64,000 nt of DNA from Ignavibacteria bacterium (GCA_025612375.1 JAAXKN010000006.1:124001-188000), one strand, 5' to 3'; shown: positions 37,408 through 49,166, numbered from the stretch's first letter. The notes: a model not told the origin generated them from the letters alone. Made by a program: numbers and translations.

Positions 37408-38877
37408 TTACTTCATCTTCGACTGGCGTTCAAGCGCCTTCTGGTTCCATCCGGGCACAACATTTTTCAGGAATTCGGTCTTCATTCCAGTCATCTCTTC
37501 AATTTTAAGTCCCACGAAGTTCTGCGCTTTCTGCTTTGTTGAAATGTCAGGTATCGGAACTGCGTCCGTATAGCCGTGTTTTGCAAGAACACGCGTAATC
37601 TGAAGTCTTGCATCCTGAACCCTCTCCATGCATGTATTCAGTATCCTCTGCGATTCCACGGGTGAATGGAAGCTGTATGCGTTGGCCGCAGATACATAAT
37701 CCCACCTCCACTGCGCATGCCTGAGCGCCTGGAGGACAGGCTTCATCTCTTCTTCTGTAGCTCCTTTATCCCAGGCAAATTTTGCTTCAATATGTGCCTT
37801 TGCCAGATCCCTGAGAGCGGTTCTTTTTCCTTCTTCAAACTTATCCTGACGCTCGTAAACATTTCTCCTCAGCTCATCCTCGCTCTCCCTGTGGCAAACC
37901 TGGCAGGAATTTGCGATGTCGTTAAGCGGGCTCTGTATCTTGTGGTTCGTAAACTTAACTCCCCCTTCACTGCGGTAAGGCATGTGACAGTCGGCACAGG
38001 CGAGTCCCCTGGCTGCGTGAATGCCTGTTTTGAACATTTCATAATCAGGGTGCTGTGCTTTCAGCATCGGCGCCCGGCTCAGGCCGTGCGTCCAGTCGGA
38101 GAAGTTCACCTTGTCATAATACCCTTCAATTGAATCGACAATCATCCCCCTGTCCCATGGGAAGGTCAGGTAATGCTCCTCTTTTCCCTTAAAGTAATAT
38201 TCCACGTGGCACTGCGCACAGACCAGCGAACGCATTTCCTGGTGCGTGGCCTTTGTAATATCTTTTCCCTGACGCGCAAAGGCTTCTATGAGTGCCGGAC
38301 GCGTAACGCGGAGGTTCATTGTTTTGGGGTCATGACAGTCCTGGCATCCGATCGGGTTATATATTTCGGGCCCCATATCGAGCCATGTGCCCTTGTAGAA
38401 GTTGGCCACGCCGATCTGGTTCATCACCCTGGGCACGTCTGTACTCTTGCACGTCCAGCACGTTGCAGGCTGTGGAGCAGTTGTTCTTAGAATATTCCTG
38501 ATATCCTGAATTGCGTGGTAATGCCCCCGTCCCTGGTTATAGCCTTTTGAGAATGAGTATCCTGCCCAGATAACCACCAGCTCAGGATCTATATCCAGGT
38601 AATCTATCATTGCGCTGCCGCCGTATTTGCTCCTGAAGGTTGTATCCATTGTGCCAAGATAGCTCTGGTACTCCCGGGGGTAATTTTCGCCCCATTTTTC
38701 ATTTCTAGGCTCCCAGTCGGCAATCGGCTTTACCATCTGAAGAGCTGCCGATTCCTGCCTGCGTTCTACAATTGAAGCGGCCAGCATTCCGATTAGAAAA
38801 ACTATAACAACTGTACCCAGGAAAATCAGCCATCCGAGCCACGGCCTTCCTTTTATTATTTCCTGAATTGGTCTCAT
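37408..38877 (-). CDS. nrfA: Pentaheme cytochrome c nitrite reductase NrfA
   Basis: Periplasmic enzyme reducing nitrite to ammonium with six electrons, 489 residues. The catalytic heme site has the special CWTCK motif with Lys as ligand (140-144); four normal sites follow: CQDCH (178), CAQCH (220), CADCH (294) and CQVCH (325). KFTNHKIQSPLNDIANSC is the usual region before the last heme. The N-terminus keeps a hydrophobic helix (about 17-37) that may stay as an anchor. nrfH is 53 bases upstream, giving the standard quinol-linked NrfHA pair. Confidence 0.96.
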   Translation of the reverse strand: MRPIQEIIKGRPWLGWLIFLGTVVIVFLIGMLAASIVERRQESAALQMVKPIADWEPRNEKWGENYPREYQSYLGTMDTTFRSKYGGSAMIDYLDIDPELVVIWAGYSFSKGYNQGRGHYHAIQDIRNILRTTAPQPATCWTCKSTDVPRVMNQIGVANFYKGTWLDMGPEIYNPIGCQDCHDPKTMNLRVTRPALIEAFARQGKDITKATHQEMRSLVCAQCHVEYYFKGKEEHYLTFPWDRGMIVDSIEGYYDKVNFSDWTHGLSRAPMLKAQHPDYEMFKTGIHAARGLACADCHMPYRSEGGVKFTNHKIQSPLNDIANSCQVCHRESEDELRRNVYERQDKFEEGKRTALRDLAKAHIEAKFAWDKGATEEEMKPVLQALRHAQWRWDYVSAANAYSFHSPVESQRILNTCMERVQDARLQITRVLAKHGYTDAVPIPDISTKQKAQNFVGLKIEEMTGMKTEFLKNVVPGWNQKALERQSKMK

Positions 38878-38930
38878 ATTCTAAGCCCCTGAACTTGTGA
38901 AAGATATATTTTGATTTTTATTTTCTGATT

Positions 38931-39560
38931 CTATTTCGATTTATCTTTTTCCGGTACAGTAGTTCTCAGCCACTCCGGCACTGCCGGCGAGAGGTTAGGG
39001 ACCCTTGCATAAGGTGCCGAGGCCAGGCCTCGCACACGCCCGTGAGGGGTTTCCCTGTGGCAGCTCCAGCATACGGGGCCCTCACCTTTCAGGTAATCTT
39101 TATAAGTGATATTTCTTGCGTAAACCATCTGCACGCGGAAGTAGTGGCACCTTATGCAGTTTTCCTGCACCACCCCTGCCCCTGCTTCTTTGATTGTAAT
39201 TACCTGGGGCTCCAGCCTGAAGGTAAATATTGTTGCGTGCCTGAGGCCGTCGGACGCCTTGAAGAAATATTTGCGCACAAAATTGTCGTGCGGAACGTGA
39301 CAGCCGTTACACGTAGCAACGCGCCCGTGGCTGCTCTTCTGCCAGGTTGCATACTGAGGGTTCATGACGTGGCAATTTACGCACGTCTCGGGATTATCTG
39401 AAAGATAGGAAACTGCATTGGATATGACAAAAACATAAACTCCAAGCCCGGCAAATATGCCGAGCAGTACAATTACCGGCACTTTCCACTTATCGGGAGG
39501 AACAAAGGCATTAACTATTCTTTTTACAGCCGGGACTTTTTGACGGGGCTCTTCCTGCAT
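38931..39560 (-). CDS. nrfH: Tetraheme quinol dehydrogenase NrfH
   Basis: NapC/NirT-family membrane cytochrome that passes electrons from menaquinol to NrfA, 209 residues. One N-terminal helix (about 26-47) is followed by four CxxCH sites: CVNCH, CNGCH, CIRCH and CWSCH; CVNCHVMNPQYATWQKSSH is the quinol-site segment seen in NrfH. The N-terminal cytoplasmic stretch of about 25 residues is basic. A terminator lies upstream, so nrfHA has its own promoter in 39561-39740, where I could not place a consensus. Confidence 0.95.
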   Translation of the reverse strand: MQEEPRQKVPAVKRIVNAFVPPDKWKVPVIVLLGIFAGLGVYVFVISNAVSYLSDNPETCVNCHVMNPQYATWQKSSHGRVATCNGCHVPHDNFVRKYFFKASDGLRHATIFTFRLEPQVITIKEAGAGVVQENCIRCHYFRVQMVYARNITYKDYLKGEGPVCWSCHRETPHGRVRGLASAPYARVPNLSPAVPEWLRTTVPEKDKSK

Positions 39561-39793: not shown

Positions 39794-40219
39794 TTACTTG
39801 AACTGCGCAAAAGCATTTGTATTTTTTGTTGGGGCAAACCTGTGCTTGTATCCCGAAGCGCGTTCGGGGTAGTATGCCTGTTTTTCGCCTGAGGCAGTTT
39901 CATTATAAACTACCGTATACCTGCCCTGCCTTGATGAATATTCATTCCTCGGGGCGGGCTGCGCCTGCAGCTGCTGGCTCTCCATCCCATTATATGACGG
40001 ATTGTACTCGTTATAAACACTCAAAGTCTGAGGATAACTCTGCTCCTGTCTCATTTCTGAATAATAGCCATGACTCATCTGCATGCCATATTCCGGCTGG
40101 ATCTGAGTTGTCTGTTCGCTCTTGTTCATCTTGAACACGATGTAGGATATAAGTAACACCAGCAGCAGGAGTCCTGAAAAAAGGGCTAAGCTGATCTGAA
40201 TAATTGGTACAAGTTCCAT
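39794..40219 (-). CDS. Small single-helix membrane protein, Gln/Tyr-rich tail
   Basis: Unrecognised protein of 141 residues. A strong hydrophobic helix spans about 10-31 (LALFSGLLLLVLLISYIVF), followed by a low-complexity tail rich in Gln, Tyr, Ser and Asn, probably disordered; AYYPERASGYKHRFAPTK is the most ordered-looking piece. GGGAG precedes the ATG. It is flanked by the respiratory two-component operon and nrfHA and may be under a sigma-54 promoter (40255-40269). Confidence 0.7.
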   Translation of the reverse strand: MELVPIIQISLALFSGLLLLVLLISYIVFKMNKSEQTTQIQPEYGMQMSHGYYSEMRQEQSYPQTLSVYNEYNPSYNGMESQQLQAQPAPRNEYSSRQGRYTVVYNETASGEKQAYYPERASGYKHRFAPTKNTNAFAQFK

Positions 40220-40595: not shown

Positions 40596-41156
40596 TTAAT
40601 CAGCCGGAAGAGCAACAAAACTGTCCTTAAAGCCGTTATTTGAAAGGATTTCCATGCAGTCGGGGCAGTAGAACTGCCCCTTGATGTCAATTTCTTCAAC
40701 TCCCTGCGAGGAATGCATTACACAATCCCAGCTCCTGCAGTGAATGAGGCCCATATTGTGCCCCAGCTCATGGAGTATTTCCTTAATTGTTCTATCAATG
40801 AAAAGCTTGTCGTTTGTCTTGCCCGAATAAAATTCCTCGTGCAGGCGGCAGACGGATACAATGGAGTGCTTTCCGTTAAGCTGTGCCTCACCGAAGACGT
40901 AGGTAAAGACGGGGACGAACAGATCAAATTCCACAAGCATAAGCACCTTGCCGTCGTAGCCTGAGGTAAGCTTAATGGCATCGGCAATAAGCTGTGTCGA
41001 AAAATATTGCCCCCTGTCCCTGGAGAATGCTGCAGCCGTGTTGACGGGCAGAGAAATGACTGAAACTTTATCCTTAAAGATGCCGGAAATATTTTTTACT
41101 ATGCTGTGTAATACCGAGACATTTGAAAATTCAACAGGAGCAATAAAAAAATTCAT
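40596..41156 (-). CDS. Archaemetzincin-family metalloprotease
   Basis: Zinc protease of 186 residues. The extended metzincin site HELGHNMGLIHC is followed by C(x)4CxM (HCRSWDCVM) and a CPDC pair, the four-Cys second zinc site diagnostic for archaemetzincins (AMZ). No signal peptide, so cytoplasmic. The start overlaps the stop of the sigma-54 regulator gene by a base, so it is translated with the two-component system; its target protein is unknown. Confidence 0.9.
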   Translation of the reverse strand: MNFFIAPVEFSNVSVLHSIVKNISGIFKDKVSVISLPVNTAAAFSRDRGQYFSTQLIADAIKLTSGYDGKVLMLVEFDLFVPVFTYVFGEAQLNGKHSIVSVCRLHEEFYSGKTNDKLFIDRTIKEILHELGHNMGLIHCRSWDCVMHSSQGVEEIDIKGQFYCPDCMEILSNNGFKDSFVALPAD

Positions 41157-42505
41157 CAGGATTTACGAAATCCATATTTATTGATTTTGTTGTACAAAGT
41201 AACGCGGTCGATCTGCAGGGCTTCTGCACTTTTAGAGATATTCCAGTTATTCATCTCGAGCACGTTCATAATATGCCTTTTCTCCATGCTCTCCAGGCTC
41301 TTGTCGCCGTCATCGTCAATCCTGTTGTTCGGAGTCACATGGAACGGCAGGTCCTCAATCTTAATTGAGTCGCCCCTGCCCACAACGAGTGCACGTTCAA
41401 TTGCGTTTTCAAGCTCGCGCACGTTTCCGGGCCAGCTGTAATTGACAAGAAAATCCATCGCCTCGTTGGAAATGTTCTTGATATTCTTGTTCATGGCCCC
41501 GTTAAACTTGTTCATGAAGTAGTAGGCCAGCACAGGAATATCATCGCGCCTTTCCCTCAAAGGAGGCAGGAAAATGGTAAATACATTCAGGCGGTAATAG
41601 AGATCCTCCCTGAATTTTCCCTCCTTGAGGAGGTTTTCCAGGGGCTCGTTTGTTGCGGCAATGACCCTGAAATCGCTTTTGATATTTTCATTTCCGCCGA
41701 CGCGCGTAAACTGCTTTGTTTCAATTACCCTTAAAAGCTCAATCTGCATTTTGGGAGAAACGGTTCCGATCTCATCTAAAAATATTGTTCCGCCGTCAGC
41801 CATTTCAAATTTGCCCTTGCGCTTGTAGTGGGCACCCGTAAATGCGCCTTTCTCGTGGCCGAAGAGCTCCGATTCCAGAAGTGTTTCAGCCAGGGCTCCG
41901 CAGTTTACAGTTACAATCGGGAAATACTTTCTCTTGCTGTTTATATGGATTGCCTTGGCCACCAGTTCCTTGCCTGTTCCGCTTTCGCCACGTATCATTA
42001 CCGTGGTATCCGTCTGGGCTACAGTATTGATAAGGTCGAAAATCTTAATCATCTGGCGGCTTTCGCCTATAAGGTTGTCGGGCTTTATTATCTCATCGAT
42101 ATTATCCTTGAGCTGCTCGTTTTCCTGCCTGAGCGCCCTCTGATGAATGGCCTTTTCAACAATGTGTGCCAGTTCGTCGGGATCTATAGGCTTTGTGATG
42201 TAATCGTACGCACCGTTCTTAAGGGCCTTGATGGCCGTAGGGACAGAGGCAAAGGCGGTTATTAGAATAAAGATGGTGTCCTTGTCAATTTCCTTTACTT
42301 TATCCAGCAGTTCGAGCCCGCTCATGCCCGGCATCTTCATGTCGACGAGCATCAGCTCATACTTGCCCTTATCTATTGTTCTGAGTGCTGCCTCAGCGTC
42401 CTCGGCAGTATCCACTTCGTAACCTTCTTCCTCAAACCAGTGTAACAGGGATTCTCTTACAATTTTTTCGTCGTCTACAATTAATATTCTGGTTTTATTT
42501 TTCAT
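41156..42505 (-). CDS. Sigma-54-dependent response regulator (NtrC family)
   Basis: Transcription activator of 449 residues. The receiver domain has the acidic pair DD (11-12) and phospho-acceptor Asp55 in [10 protein letters not shown]. The AAA+ domain holds Walker A GESGTGKE and the sigma-54 contact loop GAFTGA, and the C-terminal Fis-type helix-turn-helix reads [20 protein letters not shown]. It overlaps the histidine kinase gene by 11 bases and should be its partner. Likely targets are the neighbouring respiratory genes, especially 39794-40219. Confidence 0.93.
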
Positions 42506-44102
42506 GTTGATCTCTGCTGTTGTTTTTTCTTAACGGCAAACTTACCTTTATAGTTGTTCCCTTTGGGGAAGTGCTTTCAACTTCAATTTTTCCCTTGTGA
42601 TGTTCAATTATGCCATAGGCAACCGCAAGACCCAGGCCGGTACCCTTCTTCTGTTTTGTAGAATAGAAAGGTTCGAATATATGCGGCAGGTGTTCAGGCA
42701 TTATACCGCTGCCTTCATCTATAATTCTGATGGCCACATATTCTTTTTCATTTACAACCGATACCTTGATGCAGCCGCCGTGCGCCATGGCTTCAATGGC
42801 ATTAATGAGTAACGACATCAGAGCCTGCTGTATCTTCTGCGAATCCACGTTTATCTTTACGCATTCTTCGGGATAATCGGTTACAAGCTTAATTTTATGG
42901 ATCTCCAGGTGATGGTTGATCAGCTGTATGCATTTATCAATTATGGAAACAATGTTTTCCGAATTAAATTCATCCTCACCCCTGTGCGAGAATAGCAAGA
43001 GGTCCTTAACGATCCTTCCGCAGCGCGATGATTCATCTGAAATCAGCTCCAGGAATTCGAGCAGCTTCTTGTTCTCGTCGCTTTCGGGCTGTTTCTGAAT
43101 TTTCCTGGAAATCAGCTTGCTGTAAGTTAAAATGCCTTCCAGAGGGTTATTCAGCTCGTGGGCCACCGTAGCCGAGAGCTTTCCAAGTGAGGCCAGTTTT
43201 TCAATCTGTATGATCTGGTCGTAGATCTTCTTAAGTTCCTCAGTTTTTTCTTTTACCTTTTCGTTAAGAGTCTCCGACCACTCTTTAATTTCCTTATAGG
43301 CCAGGTCGAGCTTGCTTCCCATATCATTAAACTGGCCTGCCATTTTACCCAGCTCGTTCTGCGAGCGTACATCTATTTTGTAGTTCAGGTTTCCTTTTCC
43401 GAGCTCCTCGATCCCCTTTGTAATCTTCTTTACCGGGCGGTTAACGACAATTGAGATAAACAGCCATATGGCAATTGCAATGATTAAGGTAACAAGTATA
43501 GATGTGGCAACCACGTTTGAAATATTGCTCGATATAATGCTATCGGCTTCCTTCATTGAAATCACAACGTCCAGCACGCCCAGTATTTTTACATTCTTAT
43601 CGTGGGCATGGCAGCCGGAATTCCAGCAGTCGTCCTCATTGTAAATCGGGTTTATGAGTCCCAGTACCCTGGAGCCGTCATTTTTCCTGAAGAGCCTTAT
43701 TTTATCTTTTACAGGGAGGATTGAAACGTGCTTCCCATCGCTGTGGCAGGCAACGCAGGCCTCGGCGTTTTTATTCATCAGGGAGGAGATTTCCGTGCTG
43801 TCGGTTGAGAATATCACGCGGCCGAGCTTATTGTATATCCTGATCTTCTCCACGCCTGTTTCCGTTCCGATAGTCTTAATGATCTGATGCACATCATAGC
43901 TATGGTTTAAGAGCATGCTGTAGCGCGTGGATTTTTTTATAATATCGCTCATATTGTACGCATTCTGCGAATATGAGTTCGTAAGGTCTTTTTCAAGCGT
44001 GGTAAGGGTATAGATAGTCTGGAAGCCAAGGTTAACAAGCAGGATCAGCGATATTACTAATATCAGCTTGAAACTTAGTTTATTATAAAATTTGATCTTC
44101 AT
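42495..44102 (-). CDS. Histidine kinase with c-type heme motifs in the sensor domain
   Basis: Membrane sensor kinase of 535 residues. Helix 1 spans about 11-31, a periplasmic sensor domain 32-197, helix 2 about 198-220, then HAMP, a coiled coil, HisKA with phospho-His315 in [13 protein letters not shown], and HATPase with [20 protein letters not shown] and GTGLGLAV. The periplasmic part has CVACH (116-120) and CWNSGCH (159-165, CX4CH), both potential covalent heme sites. It probably senses redox state or a heme ligand. The minus-strand promoter may be TTG-N20-TAGTTTTT near 44128-44156. Confidence 0.92.
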
Positions 44103-44251
44103 GGAATATAGCTTAAAATTCTCACCAAAAACTATCTAATTATGCCGTGAATTGCAAGGAATTTCACAGGACAAGAGGGTGCTTTTAGAAGAATAATTTA
44201 GGCTCAGCAACAATTCCCGGAGCAGCAGGGAGAAGGAGGGCTTTAAGGCAA

Positions 44252-44288
44252 AAAAGCCTGCCGTCAGCTTTGAGACGGGCAGGCTTTT
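44252..44288 (-). terminator. Terminator of the GcvH-like/NrfCD/cytochrome operon
   Basis: AAAAGCCTGCC-GTC and its complement pair over 14 bases with a single bulge; on the minus strand six T follow. It ends the unit whose last gene stops at 44311. Confidence 0.88.
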
Positions 44289-44310: not shown

Positions 44311-44805
44311 TTATGAATGCTTAACCATATTCCATTTTTTGTTGTAGTCGAACGGCTTGTATGTCGGGCTGTTCGGGTTATGGCATTTTTTGCACAAAGA
44401 GGCATCGCCTTTACCAAGAATGAGGCCTTTCTGTTTTGCAAGATTGTGATCTTTCATTACATTCATTGCCTTATAGTCGGAACCTGCTCCGTGGCAGCTT
44501 TCGCATGAAACGCCTTCGTCTTTCTTGGCAGTATTAGTAACATGGCAGTTGAGGCATTTATCTGAAGTAGTAGGATCTGAAATTTTCATTTTTGCAGCAA
44601 TGTCTTTTGACTTCTGGCTTTTCAGTGTTTCAAAAGCTTTTGCGTGGTCTGTTGACTGCCATTTTTCGAAAATATTTTTGCCTTTGGCACCCTTGTGGCA
44701 GGCTCCGCAGGTCTTAACGCCTGTAAAGCTTGGCCCTGCAAAACTGTTTGTGGAGAAAGAGAGCATAAGTAACAGGACAAGTAACATACTGAACTGGATT
44801 TTCAT
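44311..44805 (-). CDS. Periplasmic tetraheme cytochrome c (c554-like)
   Basis: Exported cytochrome of 164 residues with a signal peptide (about 1-23). Four heme sites are visible: CGACH, CLNCH, CESCH and CKKCH. The pattern, with FEKWQSTDHAKAFETL after the first heme and VSCESCHGAGSDY, fits the cytochrome c554 / 'cytochrome c family' (PF13435-like) group. It is the last gene of the operon with NrfD and the ferredoxin, so it probably accepts or delivers electrons on the periplasmic side. Confidence 0.9.
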   Translation of the reverse strand: MKIQFSMLLVLLLMLSFSTNSFAGPSFTGVKTCGACHKGAKGKNIFEKWQSTDHAKAFETLKSQKSKDIAAKMKISDPTTSDKCLNCHVTNTAKKDEGVSCESCHGAGSDYKAMNVMKDHNLAKQKGLILGKGDASLCKKCHNPNSPTYKPFDYNKKWNMVKHS

Positions 44806-44817
44806 CTTTTTACATCC

Positions 44818-45549
44818 TTATTTTGATTTATTGAACAATGAGTTTAGAATATTCAAATAATTATCCGTGCCTATTATCTGATAAAGGAACTGCAGCTTTA
44901 CGCCGCCGTCCATCATCGTATAGCCGACATCAGGATAATTCAATTGAATCTGTGTTATTTTTTTTGTCACCTTTACAATATCCCTGTGATAATCGGATAC
45001 AGGAAGTGTGTTTGCATTCATCTCCTCCTCAGAAGCCTTAATGAGGCTGAACCACCTGACCAGCGAATCCTCTTTTTCTTCAGTATTGATCTTACCCAGA
45101 CAGGTAAAACTCATTGGGGAAGTAATATCGACCGATCCCCAATCTCCTTTGATTTCGATTATTCTGTCCCCCTGAGACACGTTTCCCGGACCCACGCAGT
45201 ATTCAACCGAACTGTACTGGTCCAGCAGGTGCATTGCCAGAGGGCTTAAGCCCAGATAAAATGTATGATTAAAAAGATTCTTCAAGACCAAATGATTCTG
45301 CAGATAAGTGTAATTCGAGTTTAATTCCTCGCTGCCGATGTGATCTATAATACGCTGTATCACGTCGTTGCTTCTTGCCGGTTCGGCCTTGCTGGCAGGC
45401 TGAGCCGCGTTTCTGATCGCCTTATCGAACGAGCAGTTCTCACAGTCAAATCCCCTGTCGCAAAGTTTATAACCGACATTATTCGACTCCATCCAGATAC
45501 ATTTAATATCATGAAAGAGCCTTTTCCCCTTATCTTCTTGCTTTGACAT
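44818..45549 (-). CDS. GcvH-fold protein with Cys-rich N-terminus, no lipoylation motif
   Basis: Soluble protein of 243 residues. The head has a four-Cys pattern (CIWMESNNVGYKLCD, then FDCENCSFD) that could bind a metal. The middle (FYLGLSPLAMHLLDQYSSVE, GDRIIEIKGDWGSVDITSP) aligns by eye with the glycine cleavage H-protein core, but the ESVKA-type motif carrying the lipoyl-Lys is replaced. It lies between nrfD and the tetraheme cytochrome. The ATG at 45549 (GAGAA upstream) is used; an in-frame TTG lies at 45561. Exact role unknown. Confidence 0.75.
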   Translation of the reverse strand: MSKQEDKGKRLFHDIKCIWMESNNVGYKLCDRGFDCENCSFDKAIRNAAQPASKAEPARSNDVIQRIIDHIGSEELNSNYTYLQNHLVLKNLFNHTFYLGLSPLAMHLLDQYSSVEYCVGPGNVSQGDRIIEIKGDWGSVDITSPMSFTCLGKINTEEKEDSLVRWFSLIKASEEEMNANTLPVSDYHRDIVKVTKKITQIQLNYPDVGYTMMDGGVKLQFLYQIIGTDNYLNILNSLFNKSK

Positions 45550-45550
45550 T

Positions 45551-46723
45551 TTATTTCTCAAATATTATTTCTTTATCTTCCACAGCCTCTTCTGCTGAAG
45601 CATCACTGGAATCTTCATCCTCAAATACATTAAAATACTTAACAACTGTACTGAATCCCCACATACCGATCACTACCAGCATTGCGGTTATACAAATTTC
45701 ATCGAACGTCGGGAAATATGAAGTCTTACTTGAATCTGCCAGCCCCGTTATTGCAACATTCATTCTGTTAAAAACAAATCCCGACAGTACAAAAATGGAA
45801 GTAATGTACAGCCAGAACCTGTTAGTCCTGTATTTTTTCTGGCTGAGCAGAAAAACAGGGATGAACGTTCCGATAATTAATTCTGTATAGAACATGTAAG
45901 TTTCAGTACGGGGAATGAGTAAGTAAGGCAGTTTGCCTGCTGCAATCATATCCGTCATTCTGACAATAAAACCGATTGATAACGCATATAATACTATCTT
46001 GCCTAATCCTGAAAGGATATCAACCTTAAGACCCACATTGAAAGTCCTGGCATTCAGGTATGATTCAAAGATAATCATAGATAAACCGGCGCTGATACAT
46101 GAGATAAAGAAGTTAACCGGCAACAAATTTGAATACCACAGGGGATATAACCTTCCCGGAACAATAAGATACAACGAACCAAATGAAGACTGATGCAAAG
46201 TTGAAAAAAGGACACCCAAAATTACGACAGGAACAGAAATTTTCCTAAGAATTTTTATGGGGGCCTTCAAATGAAATTTCTCCAGAATTACCGGGGCAAA
46301 TTCAAGAGAAAGAATGGTTGAATAGCAGATAACGCACCATGTAATTTCAAACATTACCGAGTGAATATTCCACATTATGAGGGGATGCCAGAAGTTCTGC
46401 GGGCGCCCCAGATCAATTACCAGCAGGAGCACTACGAGCATGTAGCCGATAAAGGCGGTCAGTATTGCCGGACGGACGATCGGCTCATACTTATGAACAT
46501 TAAATACGTGTACCGTAACTGCAATCGTAAAACCTGCGGCTGCAAGGCCGACGCCCAGAAAATCGAAGCCGATCCATAAGCCCCAGGGAATCGCATCGCT
46601 TAAGCGCGTAGAGGCACCTAAACCCTTGAAGAATCTGATATAGCTGGAGTACAGGCCGAAAACCATGATAATAATACCTAGGGTTTTCCAAAACGTAAGT
46701 TTAAAAAAGTTAGTTTTTTTCAT
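45551..46723 (-). CDS. NrfD/HybB-type quinone-interacting membrane protein
   Basis: Polytopic protein of 390 residues with about ten helices, of the NrfD/PsrC/HybB superfamily that exchanges electrons or protons with the quinone pool. Typical features are a Gly/Trp-rich early region (AIPWGLWIGFDFLGVGLAA), ILTAFIGYMLVVLLLVIDLG and RPQNFWHPLIMWNIHSVMFE. It overlaps the upstream ferredoxin gene by a base and the GcvH-fold gene follows immediately. With the ferredoxin it makes the usual membrane module. Confidence 0.93.
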   Translation of the reverse strand: MKKTNFFKLTFWKTLGIIIMVFGLYSSYIRFFKGLGASTRLSDAIPWGLWIGFDFLGVGLAAAGFTIAVTVHVFNVHKYEPIVRPAILTAFIGYMLVVLLLVIDLGRPQNFWHPLIMWNIHSVMFEITWCVICYSTILSLEFAPVILEKFHLKAPIKILRKISVPVVILGVLFSTLHQSSFGSLYLIVPGRLYPLWYSNLLPVNFFISCISAGLSMIIFESYLNARTFNVGLKVDILSGLGKIVLYALSIGFIVRMTDMIAAGKLPYLLIPRTETYMFYTELIIGTFIPVFLLSQKKYRTNRFWLYITSIFVLSGFVFNRMNVAITGLADSSKTSYFPTFDEICITAMLVVIGMWGFSTVVKYFNVFEDEDSSDASAEEAVEDKEIIFEK

Positions 46724-47493
46724 TAGTGTTCATTCCTCTTTAATTGTTCATCCCTTTTCTCCCTGGCTATCTGATTTTTTCTTTTTGTAAGCCAGTGCAT
46801 CGAACCCAGAAATACACCGCCTGCGGCAACAATAGTAGGAATCTTTTCCATTACACGGCCCGTCAGCTCAGGCAGCGCTTCCTTCGGCAGATTCGGTGTA
46901 TAGCCTAATTTTTCAAACGGCACTGAAGCAAGTACCAGTACGTTGCCACCGCCGGCTTCCTCAAGCCCGTAAATGTGCTGATAGTAAGTATCGGGACTGT
47001 CTTTCAGCCTCTGCTTGGCTTCGGCAATCAGTTCATCCATATCTCCGAACTTCGTGGCGCCTGTGGGGCATGCTTCAGAGCAGGCCGAGGGAAGGCCTTT
47101 TGCAACCCTGTCGTGACACATGATGCACTTGCGGACCCTGGGATTTGTGCTGCTCCATTCATAACGCGGGATCTGATGAGGGCATGCCTGCATGCAGTAG
47201 CGGCAGCCTATGCACTTTTCGGCGTCATAAATTACGGCGCCTTCTTTAGATTTTTCAAATGCTCCGACCGGGCAAACCGAAGCGCAGGTCGGCTTTGTAC
47301 AATGCATACACATCTTCCTGGCATAAAGGTCTCCGTGCTGTTCAACAACCGTGTATGTATCTGCTGAAAGATGATCTTTTAAGAAATCTGAATTGGTATC
47401 TTTAAGCTTGTTCTGTTTTTTGCAAGCGTTATAGCATTCACCGCAACCGACGCACATGGTCGAGTCGTAAAGTAGTCCTTTCTGTTTACTCAT
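46723..47493 (-). CDS. Four-cluster ferredoxin subunit (HybA/NrfC-like) with C-terminal anchor
   Basis: Iron-sulfur electron-transfer subunit of 256 residues. Four Cys groups can hold four [4Fe-4S] clusters: CVGCGECYNAC, CMHCTKPTCASVCP, CIGCRYCMQACP and CIMCHDRVAKGLPSACSEAC. A hydrophobic segment near the end (TIVAAGGVFLGSMHWL) would anchor it, as in HybA. No Tat signal is visible at the N-terminus, so it likely faces the cytoplasm. The ATG at 47493 follows GAGGA; an in-frame TTG lies at 47505. Confidence 0.92.
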   Translation of the reverse strand: MSKQKGLLYDSTMCVGCGECYNACKKQNKLKDTNSDFLKDHLSADTYTVVEQHGDLYARKMCMHCTKPTCASVCPVGAFEKSKEGAVIYDAEKCIGCRYCMQACPHQIPRYEWSSTNPRVRKCIMCHDRVAKGLPSACSEACPTGATKFGDMDELIAEAKQRLKDSPDTYYQHIYGLEEAGGGNVLVLASVPFEKLGYTPNLPKEALPELTGRVMEKIPTIVAAGGVFLGSMHWLTKRKNQIAREKRDEQLKRNEH

Positions 47494-47508
47494 TATGGTC
47501 CTCAAAAT

Positions 47509-48171
47509 TTAGAAGGTTAAAAATTCTTTTTCAAAGTTTTCCATGCCTGATTGATCAATGTTGGCAATTGCGCCTTCAACGATGTTACCGCCATCGTGCA
47601 TTGTAACGCCTGCCAGCTCGGGTTTAACGGCACTTACTTCAATAAAATCTCTCATCCTTCTAAATTCTTCTTTCAGCCAAGCAGAAAGTGATTCTCCGGT
47701 TTTGAGCAACTTACTATTCTTCTCCCAGTCGGAAGGAGTGATAACCAGTCCCCAGCCATTTGTAAAAGGTTCTGTAAGAGTCTTGTTCAGAATTGAAGTG
47801 TTGACAAGTTTTACAGTGCCTTCAACGGGACTTCTGAATTTGAAAACATTTTTACTGCAGGAGCCTTCAAGAATGACATCTCCCTGTTTTACCTTAGTCT
47901 GTTCTGAAGCAATTTTGGTAACCGATAATCTTCCTAATGCCTTTAGCGCAAAATCATCTACCCCTACCTTAACAGTCCCGTCCTGAAGCTTCTGTGCCCA
48001 GGTATGGCCTTTTGAAACGTAGACCAATTCAGGATGAGCGAGGCTGCTTTTATTGAAAACAGCGCCGGGTGTTTTCTCCAGGGCCGGATGGTTCTTCCGC
48101 TGAGCTTTTAACACAAAAATGTCTATTACTATAAATAGAACAAATGTTGAAACTACAAATAAAGCGACCAT
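47509..48171 (-). CDS. Membrane-anchored GcvH-fold protein, no lipoylation motif
   Basis: First gene of the respiratory operon, 220 residues. An N-terminal helix (about 2-21) is followed by an H-protein domain: GHTWAQKLQDGTVKVGVDDF, ALKALGRLSVTKI and WGLVITPSDWEKNSKLL match GcvH. At the lipoyl site classical GcvH has ESVKA, here EGSCSK, with Cys where Lys is expected. A tail of 60 residues follows. The ATG at 48171 has GAGGA eight bases upstream and is preferred over the ATG at 48234, which falls within the operator. Confidence 0.82.
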   Translation of the reverse strand: MVALFVVSTFVLFIVIDIFVLKAQRKNHPALEKTPGAVFNKSSLAHPELVYVSKGHTWAQKLQDGTVKVGVDDFALKALGRLSVTKIASEQTKVKQGDVILEGSCSKNVFKFRSPVEGTVKLVNTSILNKTLTEPFTNGWGLVITPSDWEKNSKLLKTGESLSAWLKEEFRRMRDFIEVSAVKPELAGVTMHDGGNIVEGAIANIDQSGMENFEKEFLTF

Positions 48172-48222
48172 GATTTTATTCCTCGTTATGAATGTGTTTT
48201 TTGTATATAAATAATACAACAA

Positions 48223-48242
48223 ATTGTGTACCATTTCACAAT
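48223..48242 (-). promoter_or_regulatory. CRP/FNR-family operator upstream of the GcvH/NrfCD operon
   Basis: ATTGTG-N8-CACAAT is a perfect inverted repeat and matches TGTGA-N6-TCACA in all but one place. Its centre is about 62 bases before the ATG at 48171; with TATATA at about 48202-48207 as the -10 region it would sit near -41, the class II activation position. Confidence 0.55.
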
Positions 48243-48653
48243 ATCGAAACTCGCATTCTCATAACTAATTACAATGAAATAACTTATGTGAAATTAAGAC
48301 GGTAACGGAAAAACAGGCATAAAACGGCATATTTGTAGAAGATTTCTACATCAGTTCCGCGAAACCCCCATAAACCGCGTTTTTATTCCGTTTTGGGCAT
48401 TATTGAAGTGTTTAATTTCTCTACACCGTTATGTTGAGATTATTTACACTTTTTGCATAAAATTGATGAATTTTTCACATTTCCTTTGTTCCCGGTATGT
48501 AATTAATTCAACAGAAGGCACTCAGGAGTGATGAAAAATTAAATAGAGACAGACTGCAAAGCCCGGGGTAAAATGCCGGATTGATTTGAAGTGTCTTATT
48601 TTCGTAATTTATACAACTAACATTTTTGAATACCGGATAAATGGGGAGTTTAT
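48243..48653. other. Divergent intergenic region without a gene
   Basis: About 410 AT-rich bases between the respiratory operon and the macrodomain gene, holding the inverted repeat at 48334-48350 described separately. No protein or RNA gene is evident. Confidence 0.6.
48334..48350. promoter_or_regulatory. Inverted repeat TGTAGAA-N3-TTCTACA
   Basis: A perfect 7-base inverted repeat of 17 bases total in the divergent region between the respiratory operon and the macrodomain gene. It has the size of a dimeric regulator site. No second copy was noticed in the window. Confidence 0.45.
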
Positions 48654-49166
48654 ATGACGGATAAAATGACAGTTGAAGAAGGCGATATAACAAAGTTTCA
48701 CGTGGATGCCATTGTAAATGCCGCCAATACAACACTCCTTGGCGGAGGAGGCGTTGACGGCGCAATCCACAGAGCTGCGGGCCCCGAACTAAAAGAGGAA
48801 TGCAGGGCTCTCGGCGGATGCATTACAGGAGACGCCAAAATTACAAAAGGATACAAACTGCCTGCTAAATACGTTATACATACGGTGGGACCCGTATGGC
48901 GCGGCGGGGATTTTAACGAAGACAATCTTCTTGCCTCGTGCTACCGTAACTCACTTAAGCTTGCAAAACAAAACGGAGTTAAAACTATTGCTTTCCCTTC
49001 AATTTCCACGGGAGTCTACGGCTTTCCTTTTGAACGCGCAGCCGGAATTGCAGTAAAAGAGGTAAAGGAATTCCTTGAAGAAAACTCGTCAATCGAAAAG
49101 GTGATTTTCGTCTGCTTCAGCCGCGGCGACTATTCGACATACAGAAAGCTGCTTAACGGGAAGTAA
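48654..49166 (+). CDS. Macrodomain ADP-ribose / O-acetyl-ADP-ribose hydrolase
   Basis: Cytoplasmic macrodomain of 170 residues, close in length to YmdB. Family motifs are [43 protein letters not shown] and [17 protein letters not shown], which hold the Asn/Asp and Gly-rich loops of the MacroD class. It would hydrolyse O-acetyl-ADP-ribose or remove ADP-ribose from proteins. GGGGAG precedes the ATG. No ADP-ribosyltransferase or sirtuin is adjacent. Confidence 0.93.

Follow-up and report, generated by a model that had tools for sequence, protein, structure and literature searches.

Two relatives of the H-protein of glycine cleavage that have lost the lipoylation site are encoded within a membrane electron-transfer operon in an Ignavibacteria genome, and because such lipoate-less relatives travel with a heme-sensing two-component system and an archaeal-type protease across many phyla, they suggest that a metabolic carrier protein has been turned into part of respiratory signaling. 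Judged by sequence, the conserved unit consists of the core of this operon together with a c-heme histidine kinase, a sigma-54-dependent response regulator, and an M54 archaemetzincin, and it occurs in Ignavibacteria/Bacteroidota and, wholly or partly, in several further phyla. The window, meaning the whole stretch of 64,000 nucleotides that was analyzed, belongs to a 5.2-Mb genome in 140 contigs. As the original prediction held, five co-directional, nearly touching genes lie on its minus strand at 44311 to 48171, with gaps or overlaps of 1 to 15 bp, and form one operon in the order GcvL1 (the first GcvH-like protein), four-cluster Fe-S protein, NrfD-superfamily protein, GcvL2 (the second GcvH-like protein), and tetraheme cytochrome. 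After a terminator come three more minus-strand genes, for the kinase, the regulator, and the archaemetzincin, and the conserved block reaches to 40596, beyond the five genes first noted. The features are as follows.

48334 to 48350, either strand: palindrome TGTAGAAATCTTCTACA, candidate UAS (enhancer) of the sigma-54 regulator, found by pattern search
48218 to 48233, minus strand: sigma-54-like promoter TGGTACACAATTTGTT, the window's single match to TGGYAYn5TTGYW, where 0.5 are expected
47509 to 48171, minus strand: GcvL1 gene, encoding an N-terminal transmembrane helix and an H-protein domain (GCV_H match, AF2 model, Foldseek)
47851 to 47853, minus strand: codon for K107 of GcvL1, at the lipoyl-lysine column by alignment, not conserved in the family
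46723 to 47493, minus strand: HmcB/HybA-like Fe-S protein with four [4Fe-4S] motifs, a hydrophobic C-terminal tail, and no signal peptide (NCBIfam HmcB, 251.6 bits; N-termini compared)
45551 to 46723, minus strand: HmcC/HybB-type NrfD-superfamily quinol membrane protein (PF03916, E 2e-24; NCBIfam HmcC/HybB)
44818 to 45549, minus strand: GcvL2 gene, encoding a soluble protein with a four-Cys head and an H-protein domain (Foldseek, VIA, hhalign)
45433 to 45501, minus strand: Cys head CIWM...YKLCDRGFDCENC of GcvL2, with four Cys, invariant in 52/52
44311 to 44805, minus strand: tetraheme c554-family cytochrome, accessory (PF13435, E 5e-13; four CxxCH)
44250 to 44288, minus strand: intrinsic terminator 3' of the cytochrome gene (z -3.4 for the surrounding 77 nt)
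42495 to 44102, minus strand: histidine kinase whose periplasmic sensor has CxxCH and CxxxxCH (PF00512, PF02518)
41156 to 42505, minus strand: sigma-54-dependent response regulator with REC, AAA+, and Fis HTH domains (Pfam domain search)
40596 to 41156, minus strand: M54 archaemetzincin (PF07998, E 1.5e-24)

A single scan of an 84,980-genome collection for the GcvL2 head returned 88 loci, distributed, by their record titles, over Ignavibacteria and other Bacteroidota, Myxococcota, Acidobacteriota, Planctomycetota, Calditrichota, KSB1, and Desulfobacterota. Among the 62 loci longer than 11 kb, 56 hold both kinase and regulator, 52 the Fe-S/NrfD pair, 51 two or more GcvL genes, 46 M54, and 3 the cytochrome. 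The last of these, correctly called tetraheme from its four CxxCH motifs, is thus not a core part, its gene being present in close kin and a few others. The two-component system, M54, and GcvL occur with no Fe-S/NrfD pair nearby in 9 of the 62 loci, mainly Desulfobacterota, and GcvL1-FeS-NrfD-GcvL2 is intact in seven loci without a local kinase and regulator. Across 96 relatives, M54 and GcvL2 were both present in 32, one only in 3 and 9, and neither in 52 (Fisher p 5e-14, a value inflated by shared ancestry). At further M54 loci, the protease gene adjoins kinase and regulator genes in 16/16, seven of these loci coming from genomes with GcvL2 on another contig.

Other genes surround the unit. 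Nitrite reductase genes nrfHA (37408 to 39560, minus strand) lie 3' of the archaemetzincin, a position kept in two relatives (L035 and L037), and a 141-residue protein with one apparent transmembrane helix (39794 to 40219, minus strand) is conserved 3' of M54 in the window's family. Divergent from GcvL1 is a macrodomain gene (48654 to 49166, plus strand), which keeps this position in two close relatives and also falls within two other loci (L054 and L061). In staphylococci, GcvH-L and macrodomains are linked in operons, but we rejected a functional link by that analogy and take this neighbor as probable chance, because it is conserved only in close kin and those two loci.

Structural models and profile searches both assign GcvL1 and GcvL2 the H-protein fold that had been predicted for them. 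GcvL1, whose conserved start is the ATG at 48171 (MVALF...), matches the GCV_H profile PF01597 (E 4.3e-14), and its AlphaFold model (pLDDT 88) aligns with the E. coli H-protein (Foldseek E 7e-9, TM 0.87 by target length). The window's GcvL2 has no Pfam or NCBIfam match of its own; its distant orthologues match GCV_H at E 4e-9 to 4e-25, and its model (pLDDT 83) superimposes on an H-protein (Foldseek E 1e-6; VIA Z 12.0 over 120 residues at 2.4 A). The two family profiles align with each other over 160 columns (hhalign probability 98.4), and a C-terminal GxTMxDGG motif is common to both proteins. In the TIGR00527 equivalog test, GcvL1 scores 45.3 bits versus a cutoff of 115.85 and GcvL2 is unmatched, while a canonical gcvH is encoded elsewhere in the genome, on contig C3 (E 1.7e-44). 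The domain of GcvL1 is predicted to be cytoplasmic because positive residues come after the transmembrane helix and because similarly anchored receiver-GcvH proteins would need their receiver inside; GcvL2 is predicted to be cytoplasmic as well.

Loss of the lipoylation site is, by alignment, a family trait of both proteins. The lipoyl column, read against 25 canonical GcvH proteins of the same order, holds lysine in 25/25 of the latter, versus 10/63 in the GcvL1 family (mostly N, D, or G), 1/79 in the GcvL2 family (mostly W or G; Trp in the window), and 2/8 among receiver-GcvH fusions. The claim that this lysine is replaced in both proteins therefore stands for GcvL2 and for the two families, but taken literally it fails for the window's GcvL1, because K107 sits at the column. 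This residue lies within SCSK, not EAVK, at the expected hairpin turn in the model, and a 79%-identical relative has Asn in its place. Lysine at the hairpin tip is absent from the invariant columns of either GcvL family, and on this ground we rejected lipoylation at another conserved lysine.

The Fe-S/membrane pair, first labeled NrfCD, is HmcBC/HybAB-like by its profile scores. The Fe-S protein does have motifs for the four clusters originally described, with 16 Cys in ferredoxin motifs, and it reaches 251.6 bits with HmcB (cutoff 420), 210.8 with HybA (263), and 105.5 with nrfC (377.6). The membrane protein reaches 267.7 bits with HmcC (cutoff 550), 265.7 with HybB (450), and 18.4 with nrfD (347.6), so the closest curated models are HmcB/HybA and HmcC/HybB, with all scores under the equivalog cutoffs. 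The proposed simple path from menaquinone to periplasm was not supported either: comparison of N-termini found no Tat or other signal peptide in the window's Fe-S protein, and the predicted location of both GcvL proteins is the cytoplasm. The Ignavibacteria/Bacteroidota form of the Fe-S protein has no Tat signal and keeps the hydrophobic tail, while a Tat signal is present at loci from Planctomycetota, Acidobacteriota, and Deltaproteobacteria (e.g., L117-L120, L136, and L141).

By motif, the kinase is a c-heme sensor histidine kinase. Its extracytoplasmic sensor contains CVACH and CWNSGCH, and CxxCH and CxxxxCH recur at similar positions in 79/79 related kinases. The archaemetzincin, present in one copy in the genome, scores 87.5 bits with PF07998 (cutoff 24.4), and in its zinc motif, HELGHNMGLIHCRSWDCVM...CPDC, the last spacer is one residue under that of the published motif, HExxHxxGxxHC...CxM...CxxC (PMC3427221).

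The four-Cys head seen on GcvL2 in the original prediction proved invariant in 52/52 proteins, across phyla; the AlphaFold model has low confidence in this region. Desulfobacterota proteins (L131, L132, and L137-L147) have the head twice, one copy after the other, ahead of the H-domain, and their genes lie beside those of a response regulator and M54. Two side observations concern this group: in the L132 kinase, the sole one checked, PAS/GAF domains replace the c-heme sensor, and large FAD/Fe-S oxidoreductases are encoded near the tandem-head genes.

Upstream of GcvL1, the palindrome at 48334 to 48350 is the sole perfect TGTWGAAnnnTTCWACA in the genome and the sole match in the window. The sigma-54-like promoter beside it is weak alone, with GT rather than GC at -12 and a score of 10.5, which one random 400-bp stretch in three attains. 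Across the family, palindromes like TGTTGAAnnnTTCAACA matching at least 12/14 occur 5' of GcvL1 at 45% versus a 2.8% background, and sigma-54 promoters scoring at least 12 at 34% versus 0.9%, counts that kinship may inflate since they take in related genomes. Both sites are also found where the kinase, regulator, and M54 genes are unlinked (L097, L099, and L100); in several same-order relatives, a good site near GcvL1 is missing. We rejected a wider regulon in the window's own genome, since the palindrome search there returned the single perfect site plus one-mismatch palindromes without strong promoters. A palindrome sweep in eight relatives led to a secreted MtrC/MtrF-like cytochrome with nine hemes and a type IX secretion tail, which in some relatives lies downstream of the same site pair, with a strong sigma-54 promoter (L236, 217 to 2586, minus strand; also L240 and L241). 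Both sites precede 6/29 homologues of this cytochrome (p 2e-6 versus ORF upstreams), in about four lineages, and M54 was undetected in two of those six genomes. Homologues in the window's genome and family have weak sites only. Sequence evidence gives good support to the conservation and regulation of the unit.

The strongest hint of a signaling role for the H-domain comes from fusions in which a receiver (PF00072) and GCV_H (PF01597) fall within one protein. Tandem pairs of GCV_H matches in frames of fusion size were found in 11/25 genomes. Many relatives have a second Hmc-like cluster encoding an Fe-S protein, an NrfD, a multiheme cytochrome, another c-heme kinase whose ATPase domain carries a zinc-ribbon insert, and two receiver-GcvH proteins (tandem genes at L090, 1572 to 3595; L093, 5889 to 7911; and L186-L190), one of them membrane-anchored as GcvL1 is.

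From the gene linkage, the fold, the family-wide loss of lysine, the fusions, and the DNA sites, we infer a direction of signaling, a set of adaptor contacts, a head cofactor, and a role for the protease. In this mechanism, operon 1 would supply an HmcBC-type quinol module along with membrane-anchored GcvL1 and soluble, Cys-headed GcvL2, and operon 2 the c-heme kinase, sigma-54 regulator, and archaemetzincin. With its two c-type hemes, the kinase would respond to a ligand or to the redox state of the periplasm, and the regulator would bind the palindromes 5' of GcvL1 and fire the sigma-54 promoter, so that the system switches on the quinol module it encodes and, in certain relatives, the secreted nine-heme cytochrome as well. 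The GcvL proteins, without lipoate, may serve on the cytoplasmic side as adaptors for docking: GcvL1 would do so at the membrane and GcvL2 by means of its Cys head, as a site for a metal or an Fe-S cluster, with putative contacts to the kinase, regulator, or Fe-S protein. By tying the quinol module to kinase, regulator, or protease, they would make the output track electron flow; as a guess, M54 perhaps turns over a partner.

We give roughly even weight to the core of this proposal, that cytoplasmic, non-lipoylated H-fold adaptors couple a quinol redox module to a heme-sensing phosphorelay. It draws on the linkage of two-component system, M54, and GcvL, on heme motifs kept in every related kinase, and on the fusions, upstream sites, and lysine loss. 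However, the two-component system may control an operon whose products stay outside signaling, the window's sigma-54 site is weak, several same-order relatives have no good site, neither the one-mismatch palindromes nor the cytochromes of the genome itself come with strong sites, and, given the Tat signal on the Fe-S protein of other phyla, the protein could lie on either side of the membrane here. Instead, the GcvL proteins could belong to the quinol complex alone, as subunits with a structural or assembly role, with the two-component system controlling the operon without a physical link, a reading that we regard as unlikely, if still a serious contender. Palindrome and sigma-54 control would be enough to account for the co-inheritance, and the seven loci that keep GcvL1-FeS-NrfD-GcvL2 together without a local kinase and regulator fit it, whereas the mainly Desulfobacterota loci without Fe-S/NrfD nearby, and the receiver domains fused to GcvH domains, do not. 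The original suggestion that both proteins belong to a respiratory complex, as structural or redox-sensing subunits, is compatible with these data, and its sensing half is strengthened by the fusions and by linkage to the two-component system and M54, in some lineages without NrfD nearby.

A more specific role, which strikes us as improbable, would make GcvL2 a redox relay whose Cys-head metal or Fe-S site receives electrons from the Fe-S protein and passes the information to regulator or protease. Invariance of the four Cys across phyla, the tandem heads of Desulfobacterota, and the signal-less, possibly cytoplasmic Fe-S protein of Ignavibacteria point that way, but the Cys spacing could hold a structural zinc, the head is modeled at low confidence, and in other phyla the Tat-bearing Fe-S protein would be across the membrane. 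Very hard to sustain is the idea that GcvL proteins are still lipoylated carriers, like LbpA of the sHdr sulfur-oxidation system: the H-fold is present and K107 of the window's GcvL1 falls on the correct hairpin turn, but lysine is rare at this column in both families compared with its universal presence in canonical GcvH, and a close GcvL1 relative has Asn. No Hdr-like partner genes were among the recurrent neighbor families of 80 loci.

If the adaptor reading holds, the H-protein fold, known from a lipoate carrier of central metabolism, gains a second career in signaling, and the little-known archaemetzincins of bacteria gain a testable genetic context. The findings also point to a regulator of respiratory, perhaps extracellular, cytochromes in the mostly uncultured Ignavibacteria. 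More tentatively, a broad class of bacterial phosphorelays may use a non-lipoylated H-domain, as stand-alone GcvL or receiver-GcvH, as a docking or output module that links quinol redox complexes to sigma-54 transcription and archaemetzincin, which would make the H-fold a general signaling adaptor in respiration, including extracellular electron transfer. A literature search, with most subscription journals outside its reach, found no description of the system; all of its parts belong to known families, and what is new, as far as checked, is their combination and the way in which the H-fold is employed.

Among known systems, an adaptor precedent, by analogy only, is pyruvate dehydrogenase kinase, which binds the lipoyl domain L2: a GHKL-fold kinase docks on a lipoyl-type domain, although it is a eukaryotic Ser kinase and its domain is lipoylated. 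GcvL proteins share fold and barrel sequence with GcvH but differ in the missing conserved lysine, the added transmembrane anchor or Cys head, the C-terminal GxTMxDGG extension, other partners, and scores far under the GcvH cutoff. The GcvH-like LbpA proteins of the sHdr pathway have likewise moved into an energy-metabolism gene cluster, but they bind lipoate (PMC6067878), whereas the GcvL families are without the lysine. Desulfovibrio Hmc (HmcB/HmcC) and E. coli hydrogenase-2 (HybA/HybB) also pair a tail-anchored four-cluster Fe-S protein with an NrfD-superfamily quinol protein; unlike them, the window's pair has no Tat signal, scores below the NCBIfam cutoffs, and is seen without HmcA/D/E/F or hydrogenase genes. 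A signal-less, tail-anchored Fe-S homologue that adjoins a HybB-like protein has been described beside a Tat-exported periplasmic Fe-Fe hydrogenase, with co-export proposed (PMC10924467); there the presumed export partner is the Tat-bearing hydrogenase, whereas the window's operon has no obvious Tat partner. Finally, the window's M54 protein shares the motif of other archaemetzincins (PMC3427221) but differs from them in being bacterial and fixed in an operon with a two-component system.
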